Shown: positions 28,948 to 36,219 of the stretch, piece after piece
Layout of the letters: each line of letters opens with the position of its first letter
Numbering within the stretch: position 1 is the stretch's first letter
Assembly: GCA_014383215.1 (NCBI GenBank)
Contig: JACNIG010000140.1
Span: 1 to 36,466 of the forward strand
Direction: 5' to 3'
From: Candidatus Desulfatibia vada
GTDB taxonomy: Bacteria; Desulfobacterota; Desulfobacteria; Desulfobacterales; UBA11574
Length of the DNA stretch: 36,466 nt
Translations under genes and position numbers: made by a program
The notes under the pieces: model-generated
The model's database searches: none
What the model saw: the letters and a program-made list of their open reading frames with translations, nothing else
Told to the model about the DNA's origin: nothing

Positions 28948-30855
28948 TCAATCTTTTACTAATTTGATATGCAGATCCGTCTTAATGTGCGCTTTGCGCC
29001 CATCTTCATACGTAATCGTGGTATCGATATGCACGCTATCCTTGTCCGCATAAAGGGCATCCATTATTTCCTTATATCTTGTTTCCACAAAGGCCCGGCG
29101 CAGTTTGCGCGTACGGGTCAGTTCGTCATCGTCAGCATCGAATTCTTTGTAAAGGTTGATAAACTTGCGGACCTTGGCAGCTTCGGGCAGATCTTTGTTA
29201 GCCTGCAGGATTTGCTCTTGGACCAGATTGTAGACCTCGGGTTTCTGTGACAGTTCCGGATAGCTGGTGTAAGTAATCTTCTTTTCATCGGCCCACTTGC
29301 CGACCACGGCATAATCGATACAGACCACGGCTGTCACATAATCCAGCTTGTCTCCGATGATCCATGAATCCCTCAGGTACGGGCTGAATTTCAAGCGGGT
29401 TTCCAGATACTGGGGTGCGAAAGGTTTGCCGTCGCTTAAGGTCATGACGTCCTTGGAACGGTCGAAAACAACCAAATGGCCGTCGTCGTCGATAAATCCT
29501 CTGTCGCCGGAATAAAGCCAATCGCCTTGCAAGGTTTCGGCCGTTGCTTCGGGATTTTTATAATATCCCAGAAATACCGAGGGACTTTTACTAAGAATTT
29601 CACCCTCTTCGGTAATTTTTATCTCGGTTTCCGGCAGGGGAATTCCCACGGTGTCGAATTTGATATCGCCGCTGCGATGTACCACCGAAATCCCGGCGAT
29701 TTCCGTCTGACCGTAAATTTGCTTCAGATTGACGCCCAGGGAATGAAAAAAACGGAAATGATCCGGTCCCATGGCGGCCCCGCCGGTGTATGCATTGCGT
29801 ACACGGGAAAGCCCCAGATGGTCTTTCAGCTTCATCTGAACCCCGATGTAGGCCAGCCATTCCAGCAGCTTCCAGTACCAGGGTATCGGTTTCTTTGCAA
29901 ATTTTAAGTCGGCCACGTGATAGCCGATCTTGGTGGAAAGCTCATAGCACTTGCGCTTGATCCAGGATGCGTCCAGATACCTGACTTGCACCGTACGGGT
30001 CATCTGCTCATACATGCGTGGCGGTGCGAACATGACATGCGGGCCGATTTCCCGGATATTTTCCTGGGCGGTCTCGGGCTCTTCCGGGAAATTAATGGTG
30101 TAGCCGATCTGAAGACCGCAGGAAATCGACATCATCTGCTCGCCGATCCAGGCAAAGGGAAGATAAGAAGCGTAATCATCGTTCTCGTAGCAGGGATCGA
30201 TAGCCATCAGGTTCCGGCCCATGGTCAGCATATTATAGTGGGACAGCAAAGCGCCTTTAGGCAGTGCGGTCGTGCCGGATGTGTAGAAAAGGAGTGCGAC
30301 TTCATCACCATGCCCCTTAGAGATCAGCTCCTCAAAGAGTTCGGGTTTTTCCTGGTCGAGCTTCCGGCCCAGTTGCTGGACTTCTGTGAGGCTGATCAAA
30401 AAATCCTGATCATAATTACGCATACCTTTGGGGTTGTCCCATATGATCTTTTTCAGTTTGGGACACTCATTGAAAATGGAGATGGCTTTGTCGACCTCTT
30501 CCTGACCTTCGCCGAACAAAAATTTTGTGTCGGAATGGTCAATAATATATTTGACCTCCTCGATAAGGGAGTCCTGGAACAGCCACACGCCAATACCGCG
30601 GGCGCATATGGCCGCCATTTCGGCCCACAAGCCTTCCGGGCGGTTATCTCCGATCATGGAGACTTTGTCGCCGTCCGTAAGACCCAGGCTGATAAGTCCC
30701 AGGGTGATATATTTTACATTTTCAAAGTAATCGTGCCATGTAATGGGAAGCCAGATACCAAACTCCTTTTCCCGCATGGCCACTTTGTTCTTGCCGTATT
30801 TTTTTGCCTTTTCGTAAAACAGTTTGGGTATCGTCAGATCTTTTGTTATTTCCAT
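28948..30855 (-). CDS. Long-chain acyl-CoA synthetase (FadD/FAA-like AMP-binding enzyme)
   Basis: LLFYTSGTTALPKGALLSH, IYGQTEIAGISVVHRSG, DWLYSGDRGFIDDDGHLVVFDRSKDVMTLSDGK; likely start MEITKDLTIPKLF. Confidence 0.92.
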   Translation of the reverse strand: MEITKDLTIPKLFYEKAKKYGKNKVAMREKEFGIWLPITWHDYFENVKYITLGLISLGLTDGDKVSMIGDNRPEGLWAEMAAICARGIGVWLFQDSLIEEVKYIIDHSDTKFLFGEGQEEVDKAISIFNECPKLKKIIWDNPKGMRNYDQDFLISLTEVQQLGRKLDQEKPELFEELISKGHGDEVALLFYTSGTTALPKGALLSHYNMLTMGRNLMAIDPCYENDDYASYLPFAWIGEQMMSISCGLQIGYTINFPEEPETAQENIREIGPHVMFAPPRMYEQMTRTVQVRYLDASWIKRKCYELSTKIGYHVADLKFAKKPIPWYWKLLEWLAYIGVQMKLKDHLGLSRVRNAYTGGAAMGPDHFRFFHSLGVNLKQIYGQTEIAGISVVHRSGDIKFDTVGIPLPETEIKITEEGEILSKSPSVFLGYYKNPEATAETLQGDWLYSGDRGFIDDDGHLVVFDRSKDVMTLSDGKPFAPQYLETRLKFSPYLRDSWIIGDKLDYVTAVVCIDYAVVGKWADEKKITYTSYPELSQKPEVYNLVQEQILQANKDLPEAAKVRKFINLYKEFDADDDELTRTRKLRRAFVETRYKEIMDALYADKDSVHIDTTITYEDGRKAHIKTDLHIKLVKD

Positions 30856-30919
30856 TCCGTATCCGGTTCTTGGCTGCTTAATTGTAAAATTTACGTATTT
30901 TGCGGCAAAACTTTTTTCA

Positions 30920-30997
30920 TTGCCACTAAGGCACCAAGGCACGAAGAAAGAATACAATAATAGATATATCCTTGGTGTCTTTGTGTCTTAGTGGCAA
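30920..30997. repeat. Inverted-repeat intergenic element TTGCCACTAAGGCACCAAGGCAC ... CCTTGGTGTCTTTGTGTCTTAGTGGCAA
   Basis: Near-complementary arms read directly; same motif family as 28764-28875 and 23440-23466. Confidence 0.6.
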
Positions 30998-31002
30998 ATG
31001 TC

Positions 31003-31824
31003 TTATCTGCGGGTTGCATACAAGTCCTCTTCCCCCAGATAGGCTTTGATCACTTCAGGGTTATTCTGAACCTCTTCAGGGACACCGTCAATAATCATGT
31101 TGCCGAAGTTGAGCACAAAGACACGGTCGGAAAGGTCCATGACCACGCCCATATCATGCTCTACAAGGAGGCAAGTGACCCTCCAACGCTCCTCTTCGTT
31201 GATGTCCAGAATGAACCTGGCCATGTCTTCTACTTCTTCAAGATTGAGGCCGGCCAGAGGCTCATCCAGAATCAGAATTTTCGGCTCCAGGGCCAGCGCC
31301 CGGCCCAGTTCCACCCGTTTTTGCAAACCGTAGGGCAACATTCCCACGGGTTTGTTGCGAATGTGCTCAATCTCTAAAAGATCGATAATTTCTTCTTCAA
31401 TAAAGCTGCGGTGCCTGACTTCTTCCCGGGCAGTTTTACCGCGATACCATGTTCCGGCAACAATGCCCGATCGGTAGTGGATATGACGACCCAGGCGGAT
31501 ATTGTCAAGTACCGTCATGCCGCCAAAAACTTCAACTTTTTGAAATGTTCTGGCTATCCCCAGCATGGCGCGCTTATACGGTTTGAGATTATTGATATTT
31601 TCCTTGTTGAAATAGATATTTCCCTGTTGAGGCCTGTAAAGACCATTGATACAGTTCAGCATCACAGTCTTGCCGGCACCGTTGGGGCCAATAACGGAAT
31701 GAATCTCCCCCTCCCTTATTTTCAGGCTGACACCGGCCAGGGCCTGAACTTTTCCGAAGCTCATATGAATGTCGTCAAGTTCCAGGAGAACGTCTTGCGC
31801 TTGAGTTTCGTTGGAATTTACCAA
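31003..31824 (-). CDS. livG: Liv-type ABC transporter ATP-binding protein (LivG-like)
   Basis: VIGPNGAGKTVMLNCINGLYRPQQG, LPYGLQKRVELGRALALEPKILILDEPLAGLN. Confidence 0.92.
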   Translation of the reverse strand: MVNSNETQAQDVLLELDDIHMSFGKVQALAGVSLKIREGEIHSVIGPNGAGKTVMLNCINGLYRPQQGNIYFNKENINNLKPYKRAMLGIARTFQKVEVFGGMTVLDNIRLGRHIHYRSGIVAGTWYRGKTAREEVRHRSFIEEEIIDLLEIEHIRNKPVGMLPYGLQKRVELGRALALEPKILILDEPLAGLNLEEVEDMARFILDINEEERWRVTCLLVEHDMGVVMDLSDRVFVLNFGNMIIDGVPEEVQNNPEVIKAYLGEEDLYATRR

Positions 31825-32103
31825 TATGCTCTGCCTTCCTCTATATGATTCTAACCCAGGCTTGGCCCGGCTGTCGATTTTCCAAAAAAAAGAGATCCGA
31901 AGATCTTAAAAATGGTTTAATTTGTCAACCGCAATGCGTCGCTTCCCGGATCTCAATAATATTCTGAATATCATTCACTTGTAGTAACGCATTATGGTAA
32001 AATATTTTCCATTAATCAAGCAAAAATATTCTTATGCCCTAACCCGTATGAAGCGTAACCAAAGTCAGAACCAAGGGGCTAATTGAGCTAGGCTCAATTA
32101 AGG

Positions 32104-32766
32104 TTATAGAATCACCACTTTTTGCACCGCCTTAACGATTTCTTCAGGATCATCCATGACCTGAAGAATTTCAAGGTCTATCAGGGATATTCGGCGTTCA
32201 GCAAGCTGATGGTTCTTGATCCAGTCGACCAGCCCTTCCCAGAAGTCTGAACCGACCAGGATTAACGGAAACGGTTTGATGCGATGGGTTTGAATCAAAG
32301 TCACCGCCTCAAAAAGTTCATCCAGAGTGCCGAAGCCGCCGGGCATGATAATATAGGCAGAGGCATATTTGATGAACATGACCTTGCGGATAAAAAAGTA
32401 TTTAAAATCGAGTTTAATATTTGCATATTGATTGGGCGTTTGTTCAAACGGCAACAGAATGTTGAGCCCGACGGAGGTTCCACCTGCTTCGGTGGCCCCT
32501 TTGTTGGCCGCCTCCATGACGCCCCCGCCGCCACCGGTGATGACGGCGAATTTCCTTTCGGCAAAAAGCGCAGCGATTTGTTCGGTTTGTTTATAAACAG
32601 GATCATCGGGTTGCGTCCTGGCCGAGCCGAAGATTGATACGGCAGGGCCTAAATCATGAAGGGTATCGATGCCTTCAACGAATTCTCCCATGATTTTGAA
32701 CAACCGCCAGGCTTCACCGATTTTTAAATCATCAAGCAGAAATTGTCTTTCAATATTATTGCGCAC
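32104..32766 (-). CDS. LOG-family (TIGR00730-type, lysine decarboxylase-like fold) protein
   Basis: VITGGGGGVMEAANKGATEAGGTSVGLNI, IIMPGGFGTLDELFEAVTLIQT; GTG start with GAGGTGG SD. Confidence 0.88.
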   Translation of the reverse strand: MRNNIERQFLLDDLKIGEAWRLFKIMGEFVEGIDTLHDLGPAVSIFGSARTQPDDPVYKQTEQIAALFAERKFAVITGGGGGVMEAANKGATEAGGTSVGLNILLPFEQTPNQYANIKLDFKYFFIRKVMFIKYASAYIIMPGGFGTLDELFEAVTLIQTHRIKPFPLILVGSDFWEGLVDWIKNHQLAERRISLIDLEILQVMDDPEEIVKAVQKVVIL

Positions 32767-32785
32767 AGTACCACCTCTTCCCAAT

Positions 32786-32975
32786 TTAGTTAGCTTCCAT
32801 CCATAAACACTTTTGAGCACTAAGCAGTTTCCAATTCATAAATGAGGGATTTTTTCGAAGAGCAAGGCCGCACAAGGGTTTTCGACCGAGGCGTACTTTA
32901 GTACGTCGAGGGCGGAAACCCGCGGAGAACGCCGCTCATCGGAAAAATAGCCATTTATGGATGGAAACTAATTCG
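32786..32975. repeat. MITE-like palindromic element between the LOG gene and the selenoprotein gene
   Basis: Outer arms TTAGTTAGCTTCCATCCATAAA / TTTATGGATGGAAACTAATT; inner palindromic centre GGCGTACTTTAGTACGTCGAGG. Confidence 0.6.
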
Positions 32976-33002
32976 GCTTCCAGCCAAATTCACTCAAACA
33001 CC

Positions 33003-33221
33003 TCAGGTTTTACCGTTAAATCCGATAGTGACCTTGCCCTGGTCCACAATGACCGGCACCCGGCGCGCGCCGTCGGAATACTTCAACATATCCTTCATTT
33101 TGTCGGCATCAAATCGAACGTCATAATATTCCATCTCCCGGCCTTCTTTGGCGCAAGCTTCACGAGCTGCGGTGGTATAGGGTCAGGTGTCTTTGCCGTA
33201 AATTAAGGTTTTTTGCGACAC
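33003..33221 (-). CDS. Glutaredoxin-like selenoprotein (Uxx-star type), 72 aa with in-frame UGA read as Sec: VSQKTLIYGKDT-U-PYTTAAREACAKEGREMEYYDVRFDADKMKDMLKYSDGARRVPVIVDQGKVTIGFNGKT
   Basis: GTG start at 33221 after AAGGAGG; TGA at 33185-33183 at the redox-active N-terminal position of a UxxT motif; coding continues 59 codons to TGA at 33005-33003 with glutaredoxin-like VPVIVDQGKVTIGF. Missed by the ORF track. Confidence 0.9.
33152..33171 (-). promoter_or_regulatory. Candidate bacterial SECIS stem-loop
   Basis: CGCAGCU-CGUGA-AGCU(U)GCG: 7 bp with a bulged U, loop starts 18 nt after the UGA and has GU in the loop. Confidence 0.6.
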
Positions 33222-33263
33222 GGTTGCTTCCTCCTTGTTATGGTATTAGGTTGAACTGCAACA

Positions 33264-33460
33264 GCGAGCGCATTTCCCGCAGCTTGACGTAGTGTAGCGA
33301 AGATCCCGCCCAGCGGGTCTGCGGGGAATGCGAGCGAATCAAAAAATTAACAGAATTCCTTACAGTCGCGCGAAGCACTGCCGCAAGGCAGAACAATCTC
33401 TGCAAGCTAGCTTGATGGAGCGTAGCGGAAATCCCGCTCAGCGGGACTGCAGGGATTGTT
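33264..33460. repeat. Two tandem, diverged palindromic elements with conserved core
   Basis: GCATTTCCCGCAG...CTGCGGGGAATGC (33270-33331) and AACAATCTCTGCA...TGCAGGGATTGTT (33392-33460), both enclosing TAGCG(A/G)A(G/A)ATCCCGC(C/T)CAGCGGG. Confidence 0.65.
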
Positions 33461-33681
33461 CAAACAGACAAAAAAATTAATGCAATTTCAGTATATTGTC
33501 AGAGAATAGCCAAATTTTTTTTTAACAGTTGTTAAGTGTTTTGTCAATGATTACAGATTGACAAACATCATGGAGGTTGATAAAAAACATATGTTTTGCA
33601 TCTGATTGTTTCTTTCGTTTTTTGTCATGGGTCTTCATATATGATGAATTCGTAAAAAGTCACGAATTCAACACCAAAAAA

Positions 33682-33972
33682 ATGTCTACCATGGATAAAT
33701 CGGATATAGGGCTTTATCGGGATGTTGTTATCATCAACGCCTTGGGCCTGCACGCAAGGTCAGCAACCAAGATAGCAAAAAGGGCCCAAAACAGTAAATC
33801 AAAAATATGGATAATCAAAGACGGTGCCAAGGCGGATGCTTCCAGCATTGTCGACATCCTTACCCTTGCTTGCGAGCAGGGTTCAGAAATAACCATAAAA
33901 ATTGACGATCAATTGGATCATGAAATATTGAATGATCTTGTGAAGCTCGTTGAAAGCGGTTTTGGGGAATAA
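33682..33972 (+). CDS. ptsH: Phosphocarrier protein HPr
   Basis: VIINALGLHARSATKIAKRAQ, DASSIVDILTLACEQGSEITIKI; probable start MSTMDKSD (track start 33577 runs through a repeat motif). Confidence 0.88.
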   Translation: MSTMDKSDIGLYRDVVIINALGLHARSATKIAKRAQNSKSKIWIIKDGAKADASSIVDILTLACEQGSEITIKIDDQLDHEILNDLVKLVESGFGE

Positions 33973-33978
33973 AGTTAT

Positions 33979-35751
33979 ATGTTGAAAAACAACGGCACAG
34001 AAATGCAGATCCACGGTATTGCGGCCTCACCCGGAATATGCATAGGCAAGGCATATCTGGTTGGTCGAGAAGGTGTTGATGTTGTTGAAAAATATTTTGT
34101 CAAAAGAGAAAATTTAAAAGAAGAGATCAAACGTTTTAAGAATGCTGTAAAGAAGGCCAAAGACGAGCTCAATAAAATTATTGAACAAACCCCTAAAGAT
34201 TTTAGCCAGCATGCCCATATTCTTGAGACCCATATGGTGCTGTTCAAAGACAAGATGCTATATGGACGAACAATTGAGACCATTGAAAACGAACAGGTAA
34301 ATGCCGAGTGGGCTCTCAAGACAGTGGTATCGAATGTAAAAGCGATGTTCAGCGACATGACCGATTCCTACCTGCGGACCCGGGCGGCCGATATCATCCA
34401 TGTTTCTGACAGCATCATGCGTAATCTGGTTGGAGCCGAAACCGAGAGTATTGCTTCCATCGGCAAGCAGGTTATCCTGGTGGCGACCGATCTATCTCCT
34501 GCGGAAACCAGCCAGATACAGCTGGAGAAAGTCATGGGATTTGTAACCGACCGAGGCGGCAAGGCATCCCACACGGGCATTATCGCCAGGAGCCTTGAGA
34601 TTCCTGCAGTCCTGGGACTCGAAAATGTCACCCGTATAATCAAAAACGATGACATTATCATTGTGGACGGCACGGCCGGTGTTGTTATTATTAATCCCAC
34701 CGACCAGGCACTGATCCAATTCGAAGAACGCAAGGAACGGTACGAGGCGCATAAAGCCGTTATTTCGCGGGAAAGCCATCTTCCGGCGGAGACACTGGAC
34801 GGTATCCGCCTTCAGGTGATGGGCAATATTGAGTTTCCTGAAGAAGTCGTTGCCGTTATGGCCTACGGTGGAGACGGTATCGGCCTTTACCGCACGGAGT
34901 TTCAATATCTCAGTCACTCCGGTTTTCCCAGTGAAGATGAACTTTTTGATAAATACAAGGATGTTGTCGACGTTATCACTCCACGGCCGGTTACCATCCG
35001 AACTCTCGATGTAGATGGTGACAAAGCGGTTTCTTATGCATCCGATGCTGACGAGGCCAACCCTGTGCTCGGACTTCGCGGCATCCGATACTGTCTGCAA
35101 AAGCCTGACATTTTTAAGACCCAGCTTCGAGCCATATTAAGGGCTTCGGCGTTTGGGCACGTCAGGATTTTACTTCCCATGATCTCATGCCATGAAGAAA
35201 TTCTTGAGGCTAAAAAGATTTTAAATGAGGCCGCCGATTCTCTCGAAAATGAAGGTATCGATTATGACGGAAACATTGAAGTTGGGATCATGATCGAGGT
35301 GCCTTCAGCGGCCATTTTGGCGGATATTATGGCGAAAAGTGTTGATTTTTTCAGTATCGGCACTAACGATCTGATTCAGTTTTCGCTCGCAGTCGACAGG
35401 GTGAACAGGCAGGTAGCCCATCTTTATCAGCCGCTGCACCCTGCCGTTATCCGTATAGTCAAACATATTGCCGATGTAGCTCGTGACAGCGGCATAAATG
35501 TCTTTATGTGCGGCGAGATGGCAGGCGATCCGATGAACTTGCCGGTTCTTTTGGGGCTGGGGATAAAAAAGTTGAGCATGAACCCTCAATCCATACCGGC
35601 GGCAAAAAAAATGATAAGGTCTCTATCAATAAATGAAGCCAGATTTTTTATAACGGAAGTGCTGAAAGAGACTTCCACCAAAGGCGTCATGAACCTGGTG
35701 CAAAATACTTACGGCAGTATTCTATCCGATAAAATATTTAATGAAGGATAA
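33979..35751 (+). CDS. ptsI: Phosphoenolpyruvate-protein phosphotransferase (PTS enzyme I)
   Basis: DRGGKASHTGIIARSLEIPAVLG, GIGLYRTEFQYL, DVDGDKAVSYA, FFSIGTNDLIQFSLAVDR, FMCGEMAGD. Confidence 0.95.
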   Translation: MLKNNGTEMQIHGIAASPGICIGKAYLVGREGVDVVEKYFVKRENLKEEIKRFKNAVKKAKDELNKIIEQTPKDFSQHAHILETHMVLFKDKMLYGRTIETIENEQVNAEWALKTVVSNVKAMFSDMTDSYLRTRAADIIHVSDSIMRNLVGAETESIASIGKQVILVATDLSPAETSQIQLEKVMGFVTDRGGKASHTGIIARSLEIPAVLGLENVTRIIKNDDIIIVDGTAGVVIINPTDQALIQFEERKERYEAHKAVISRESHLPAETLDGIRLQVMGNIEFPEEVVAVMAYGGDGIGLYRTEFQYLSHSGFPSEDELFDKYKDVVDVITPRPVTIRTLDVDGDKAVSYASDADEANPVLGLRGIRYCLQKPDIFKTQLRAILRASAFGHVRILLPMISCHEEILEAKKILNEAADSLENEGIDYDGNIEVGIMIEVPSAAILADIMAKSVDFFSIGTNDLIQFSLAVDRVNRQVAHLYQPLHPAVIRIVKHIADVARDSGINVFMCGEMAGDPMNLPVLLGLGIKKLSMNPQSIPAAKKMIRSLSINEARFFITEVLKETSTKGVMNLVQNTYGSILSDKIFNEG

Positions 35752-35757
35752 TCCCTT

Positions 35758-36219
35758 TTGAACGAAAAACATATCAAGACAGTCGCTGAGAACAGAAAGG
35801 CCCGGCACAACTATGCTATCGAGGATGTCTACGAGGCGGGCATGGTCCTTTTGGGAACCGAAGTCAAATCCCTGCGGCTGGGCCTCGTAAACCTCAAGGA
35901 TTCCTATGCCAGGATAAGAAAAGGTGAGGTATTTGTTTATCAAATACACATTGGTACCTATCCCTTTGCCTATCATGACAATCATGATCCTTTAAGAATA
36001 AGAAAGTTGCTTTTGCACAATTACGAGATCAAAAAGCTGTATGGCAAAGTCAATGAAAAGGGTTTTTCCCTGATACCCTTAAAGCTGTATTTCCAAAACG
36101 GAAAGGCCAAACTAACCCTGGCCCTTGCAAGGGGCAAGCGCAAGTATGACAAGCGTGAAACCATTCGCCGGCGTGATCAGGACAGGGATTTAGAGCGATC
36201 TAAAAAGGAATACAAATAA
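35758..36219 (+). CDS. smpB: SsrA-binding protein SmpB
   Basis: ENRKARHNYAIEDVYEAGMVLLGTEVKSLR, KLYFQNGKAKLTLALARGKRKYDKRETIRRRDQDRD; TTG start. Confidence 0.95.
   Translation: MNEKHIKTVAENRKARHNYAIEDVYEAGMVLLGTEVKSLRLGLVNLKDSYARIRKGEVFVYQIHIGTYPFAYHDNHDPLRIRKLLLHNYEIKKLYGKVNEKGFSLIPLKLYFQNGKAKLTLALARGKRKYDKRETIRRRDQDRDLERSKKEYK

Follow-up and report, generated by a model that had tools for sequence, protein, structure and literature searches.

The minus strand of a 36,466-nucleotide stretch of DNA from Candidatus Desulfatibia vada (the whole stretch that was analysed, hereafter the window) carries a gene whose product is predicted from its sequence, with a probability of roughly 0.88 that covers the decoding of both in-frame UGAs as selenocysteine (Sec), to be a minimal (75 aa) double selenoprotein, glutaredoxin-like and of the thioredoxin fold. 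The chief interest of the gene is a SECIS in the 3' UTR: in the genes of the family to which it belongs, Uxx-star family 1, a bacterial SECIS (bSECIS) lying entirely in the 3' UTR quite probably recodes a UGA placed 9 nt before the stop codon, which is itself often UGA, so that one and the same message would contain UGA as Sec, as Sec again and as stop, told apart by hairpin distance; the C-terminal Sec would then be obligatory, while the active-site Sec may be Cys, in which case the hairpin that serves it largely lapses. The elements of the gene, and the open reading frame opposite to it, are the following.

32994-33221, minus strand: Uxx-star family 1 selenoprotein gene, 75 aa, matching NF041114
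33230-33236, minus strand: Shine-Dalgarno sequence AAGGAGG, 8 nt 5' of the GTG and kept in the nearest relative (L131)
33183-33185, minus strand: predicted Sec codon 1, UGA, codon 13, in U-P-Y-T at the glutaredoxin active-site position
33003-33005, minus strand: predicted Sec codon 2, UGA, codon 73, TGA in 135 of 135 distinct homologues
32994-32996, minus strand: true stop codon, UGA, codon 76, 9 nt past Sec codon 2 (TAA in L131)
32961-33206, plus strand: antisense ORF, a mechanical artefact

The frame opened by the GTG at 33221 meets TGA at codons 13, 73 and 76; with the first two taken as residues, the read-through product is VSQKTLIYGKDT-U-PYTTAAREACAKEGREMEYYDVRFDADKMKDMLKYSDGARRVPVIVDQGKVTIGFNGKT-U-GV, followed by the stop. 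Codons 13-16 (UPYT) place a Thr three residues after the Sec (UxxT), and the second Sec, in the context T-U-G-V, stands two residues before the stop, the bases after the second UGA (GGUGUUUGA) reading Gly, Val, stop. The original prediction, made from the DNA letters alone, was right about the Shine-Dalgarno sequence and the GTG, about the in-frame TGA of codon 13 and the coherent glutaredoxin-like frame that continues past it, and about Thr as the partner residue; it described, however, a 72-aa product closing at 33003 with a single Sec. The Sec at codon 13 stands, and a second, invariant one at codon 73 had been missed; since the TGA at 33003-33005 is to be read as the second Sec codon and not as a stop, the gene ends at 32994. 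An ordinary ORF track does miss the gene, as had been said; the antisense ORF expected to be called in its place gave no Pfam match at E 0.1 and is rejected as a real gene, being only a shadow of the selenoprotein gene.

As originally proposed, the product falls among the Uxx-star glutaredoxin-like selenoproteins and has its first predicted Sec near the N-terminus, in the active site: the dedicated NCBI model NF041114 ("UXX-star selenoprotein family 1") is matched with 107.1 bits (E 3.9e-31, cut-off 72) in an alignment of residues 6-75 with positions 2-70 of the 70 in the profile, that is, through the last residue. The umbrella model NF041212 (Uxx-star subfamily) is passed as well (82.6, cut-off 66), and so is Pfam Glutaredoxin PF00462 (35 bits, gathering 22.9); the scores for family 2 (NF041211, 53.5 against a cut-off of 100) and family 3 (NF047338, 46 against 97) are both well below. 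The fold and layout of NF041212, NF041211 and NF047338 are common to the window protein, and all 50 aligned family members match the same model, NF041114. That the family was already known, as originally stated, is correct: Table 1 of a 2026 review gives Uxx-star family 1 as UxxT with two Sec (PMC13188914). The window protein is an additional sequence of this catalogued family, and its two-Sec form is not new; indeed, it has the UxxT, the C-terminal U-x-x-stop and the two Sec of the NF041114 family ("distant Grx-like protein 1") and differs from it in nothing of substance, its own particulars being the GTG start and the UGA used as true stop. From the family name and the profile we infer that "UXX-star" refers to the C-terminal U-x-x-stop (here U-G-V-stop) and not to the N-terminal UxxT.

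Two further features define the surroundings of the gene.

32104-32820, minus strand: downstream neighbour, LOG-type Rossmann protein (Pfam Lysine_decarbox PF03641)
33255-33456, no strand assigned: dispersed repeat, an insertion that parts the gene from its ancestral upstream region

A LOG-type protein is encoded on the same strand, at most 400 nt downstream, in 43 of 81 loci, and a divergent ptsH lies upstream, near the gene, in 41 of the 81 (both were checked by Pfam); farther upstream are found two genes which, by our own reading of the sequences, we take to be ptsI (44/81) and smpB (39/81). The region 28948-36219 contains smpB-ptsI-ptsH, the divergent Uxx-star gene, the LOG-type gene, a branched-chain-type ABC ATPase and an AMP-binding enzyme, in an order kept in many Desulfobacterales; this is conserved synteny, with no obvious functional link. 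Elsewhere the draft genome matches the repeat 48 times, with an identity that reaches 91% over 205 bp, whereas L131 lacks it at the same place; a possible 6-bp target duplication (TTSAAC) can be seen with it.

The predicted fold (pLDDT 92, pTM 0.81) has the order strand-helix-strand-helix-strand-strand, the last glutaredoxin helix being absent, and a structural comparison by VIA matched it best to glutaredoxins and NrdH-redoxins, over 65-71 residues and with Z about 10, including the Clostridium selenoprotein glutaredoxin cGrx1 (PDB 7c10, 7c12). The latter has the same fold and the same active-site redox position (VIA Z 9.9-10.1, about 27% identity), but it lacks the U-x-x-stop tail, and its partner position is occupied by Cys (the dithiol form) instead of the Thr of the window protein. 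In the predicted model Sec13 falls on the position of the glutaredoxin nucleophile and Sec73 lies in the tail, outside the region that known structures could be aligned to. Sec13 would thus take the place of the nucleophilic Cys of a monothiol-type glutaredoxin (in U-P-Y-T the resolving Cys at +3 is absent), and Sec73, carried by the short C-terminal tail that replaces the last glutaredoxin helix, would be a second redox residue, able to form with Sec13 a diselenide or selenenylsulfide couple. Such a redox pair is a plausible prediction, and the one that we favour over a site for a soft metal or a substrate. According to the latter proposal, the two Sec would make up a soft metal or metalloid site, or would hold an organoselenium or organomercury substrate, the glutaredoxin fold acting as a scaffold; the review raises the possibility that Sec in Uxx-star proteins serves to ligate metal or to hold some unknown substrate (PMC13188914), and both the missing resolving Cys of UPYT and the fact that the two selenols are kept together in most members would agree with it. 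It appears nonetheless rather doubtful, given the conservation of glutaredoxin features (K10, the VP motif at the cis-Pro position, a G-rich turn) and the lack of any metal-handling gene among the neighbours (the LOG-type protein and the divergent ptsH-ptsI-smpB).

In a survey of 389 genomes of the class, 181 gave a match to NF041114, 171 of which above the cut-off; the loci examined comprised 111 from genomes of the class (the window's own and its relatives) and 80 from named genomes, which include Acidobacteria, Planctomycetota, Myxococcota and Firmicutes, and these two sets, which overlap, left after the removal of duplicates 136 distinct homologues for site 1 (codon 13) and 135 distinct loci for site 2 (codon 73). 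The nearest relatives of the host genome among the named genomes are Desulfobacterales metagenome assemblies. Homologues with Sec or Cys at the position of codon 13, by which the first Sec was originally said to be checkable, are indeed present, site 1 being UGA (Sec) in 118 of the 136 and a Cys codon in the other 18; site 2 is TGA throughout (135/135), never TAA or TAG. It is followed in most homologues by G/R-V/I and then by a stop, which comes two codons past site 2 in 131 of the 135 loci and is delayed by one further codon in the remaining 4, and which in those 131 may be TGA (54), TAA (50) or TAG (27). Both TGAs are found in Desulfobacterota, and that of site 2 also in Acidobacteria, Planctomycetota, Myxococcota and Firmicutes. 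Since Sec is retained at site 2 even by homologues whose site 1 is Cys, the residue overlooked at the outset is the invariant one; to judge from these alignments, Sec73 appears to be the invariant residue of the family, and the N-terminal Sec appears to be replaceable by Cys. In the nearest relative (L131, that is G249, of the same genus) the 75-aa product is identical and the gene has four base differences from that of the window, all of them silent third-position changes downstream of the first UGA; the stop after Gly-Val is there TAA in place of TGA.

Some homologues depart from this layout. In L036, L071, L087 and L048 the tail is one residue longer (e.g., U-R-V-V-stop), so that U-x-x-stop does not hold strictly for the C-terminus; L119, L126 and L108 are divergent members in which site 1 is Cys and site 2 the sole Sec (e.g., GWGGKAURV, GWQGKCURA), and they may lie close to the border with other Uxx-star families.

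Downstream of each of the two UGAs a SECIS-like hairpin can be drawn.

33153-33170, minus strand: SECIS-like hairpin 1, in the coding region, GCAGCU-CGUGA-AGC(U)UGC, from the fold and silent-codon covariation
32970-32990, minus strand: SECIS-like hairpin 2, in the 3' UTR, AAUUUGGCU-GGA-AGCCGAAUU, from the fold, z and covariation

The bSECIS model calls for a loop of 3-9 nt with a G in its first two positions, an upper stem of 4-16 bp, a spacing of 16-37 nt and an MFE <= -7.5 (PMC13188914). The folds of the window's own sequences are weak, hairpin 1 having no advantage over shuffled sequences (z 0.25) and hairpin 2 a modest one (z -1.2), and the case for both hairpins therefore rests on the comparison across species. 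Hairpin 1 has 6 bp, one bulged U and a CGUGA loop with G at position 2, its apical loop lying 18 nt past the first UGA; loop, G and spacing fit the rules, with a borderline energy of -6.9 over the hairpin stretch and -9.2 over 48 nt (the rule being <= -7.5). Folding against dinucleotide shuffles gave no signal for hairpin 1 over all the homologues (mean z 0.07). As this stretch is coding, synonymous-codon permutation was used in place of plain shuffling; over nt 12-36 the real sequences then fold better (mean z -0.68, se 0.10), by -1.15 kcal/mol in the Sec forms and by -0.14 kcal/mol in the few Cys forms. In particular, the codons of Ala19-Arg20-Glu21-Ala22 are mostly GCU CGU GAA GCN among the homologues, and the loop-closing pair is formed in 114 of the 118 Sec forms versus 8 of the 18 Cys forms, the Sec forms relying mainly on two alternative silent solutions, U-A (79) and C-G (32). 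Among the 99 Ala codons found elsewhere in the stretch only 8 are GCT, yet GCT is the commonest codon at hairpin 1; likewise, CGT makes up 6 of the 79 Arg codons elsewhere in the stretch, yet it is favoured at the hairpin. Hairpin 1 thus appears to be under selection via silent codon choice and to lapse largely where site 1 is Cys; this decay without Sec amounts to a natural control, to be taken with caution, since some of the 18 Cys genes come from more distant lineages.

Hairpin 2, which likewise appears to be under selection, is wholly untranslated, starting three bases past the stop codon. It has 9 bp and a GGA loop, with the apical loop 21 nt past the second UGA and an energy of -11 to -12 kcal/mol, and it agrees with the bSECIS rules in loop size, upper stem, loop G, spacing and MFE. 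The hairpin 2 stretch gave a mean z of -2.24 over 100 homologues, and in 38 aligned sequences compensatory changes on both sides are seen in 8 of the 8 pairs counted, with a covariation score of 0.489 against a shuffled mean of 0.211 (<=0.125 with the partner slid); in 121 of the 135 loci the distance from the UGA to the beginning of the loop is 20-25 nt (0-based). Both hairpins share with the bacterial model the loop, the G and the spacing; hairpin 2 differs from it in lying entirely past the stop codon, bacterial SECIS elements being placed by the review within coding regions (PMC13188914). A search of the literature, outside which the Haft 2023 and 2025 papers fell, found no description of a 3' UTR bSECIS, and priority is not claimed. 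Rfam, run on the whole window, returned nothing at gathering scores, from which the absence of a SECIS is not concluded.

The host assembly, a 4.78 Mb draft genome that is 92% complete, contains all of the genes selA, selB, selC and selD for which a check had originally been suggested: a tRNA-Sec (selC) with anticodon TCA, selA and selB, and a selD (L211, G000:C200:6955-7872) that is itself a selenoprotein gene, its active-site sequence KTCGUAAK containing a TGA in frame. Co-occurrence of the Uxx-star gene with selA is uninformative, because selA is nearly universal in the class (360 of 389 genomes); of the 20 genomes listed as lacking selA, no fewer than 12 carry a Uxx-star gene, and most are fragmented drafts. 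In the proposed mechanism, the hairpin within the coding region would present to the UGA of codon 13, and the hairpin past the stop codon to that of codon 73, a G-containing apical loop about 18-21 nt downstream, and at each hairpin SelB with its Sec-tRNA would be recruited and Sec inserted; for the third UGA, at codon 76, the loop of hairpin 2 would be only 12 nt downstream, under the 16-37 nt of the model, and this codon, being too close to the hairpin, would act as a stop.

Were a single genome considered, a UGA so close to another stop would resemble tandem stops, with codon 13 alone read as Sec and codon 73 an ordinary terminator; this is, however, highly improbable in view of the 135 loci out of 135 with TGA only at site 2, of the G/R-V/I that follows in most and then of any of the three stops, of the covarying hairpin at SECIS distance from codon 73, and of the NF041114 profile, which spans that codon in a family tabulated with two Sec. 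A nonsense-damaged pseudogene of a Cys glutaredoxin, which a lone in-frame TGA would fit, has a negligible probability and is ruled out by the silent-only changes relative to L131 and by the conservation of the same TGAs across Desulfobacterota, with that of site 2 also in other phyla, together with a complete Sec machinery.

The double selenoprotein gene of the window is a clean example of how ordinary annotation can both break and shorten a gene, and the true end of a selenoprotein may be missed when a Sec codon lies near the C-terminus. It also raises the question of why the C-terminal selenol is never seen as Cys here while the active-site one can be, a non-replacement on which no biochemistry was found in the literature searched; the family lends itself naturally to testing how a ribosome distinguishes a Sec UGA from a stop UGA when the two are only 9 nt apart.
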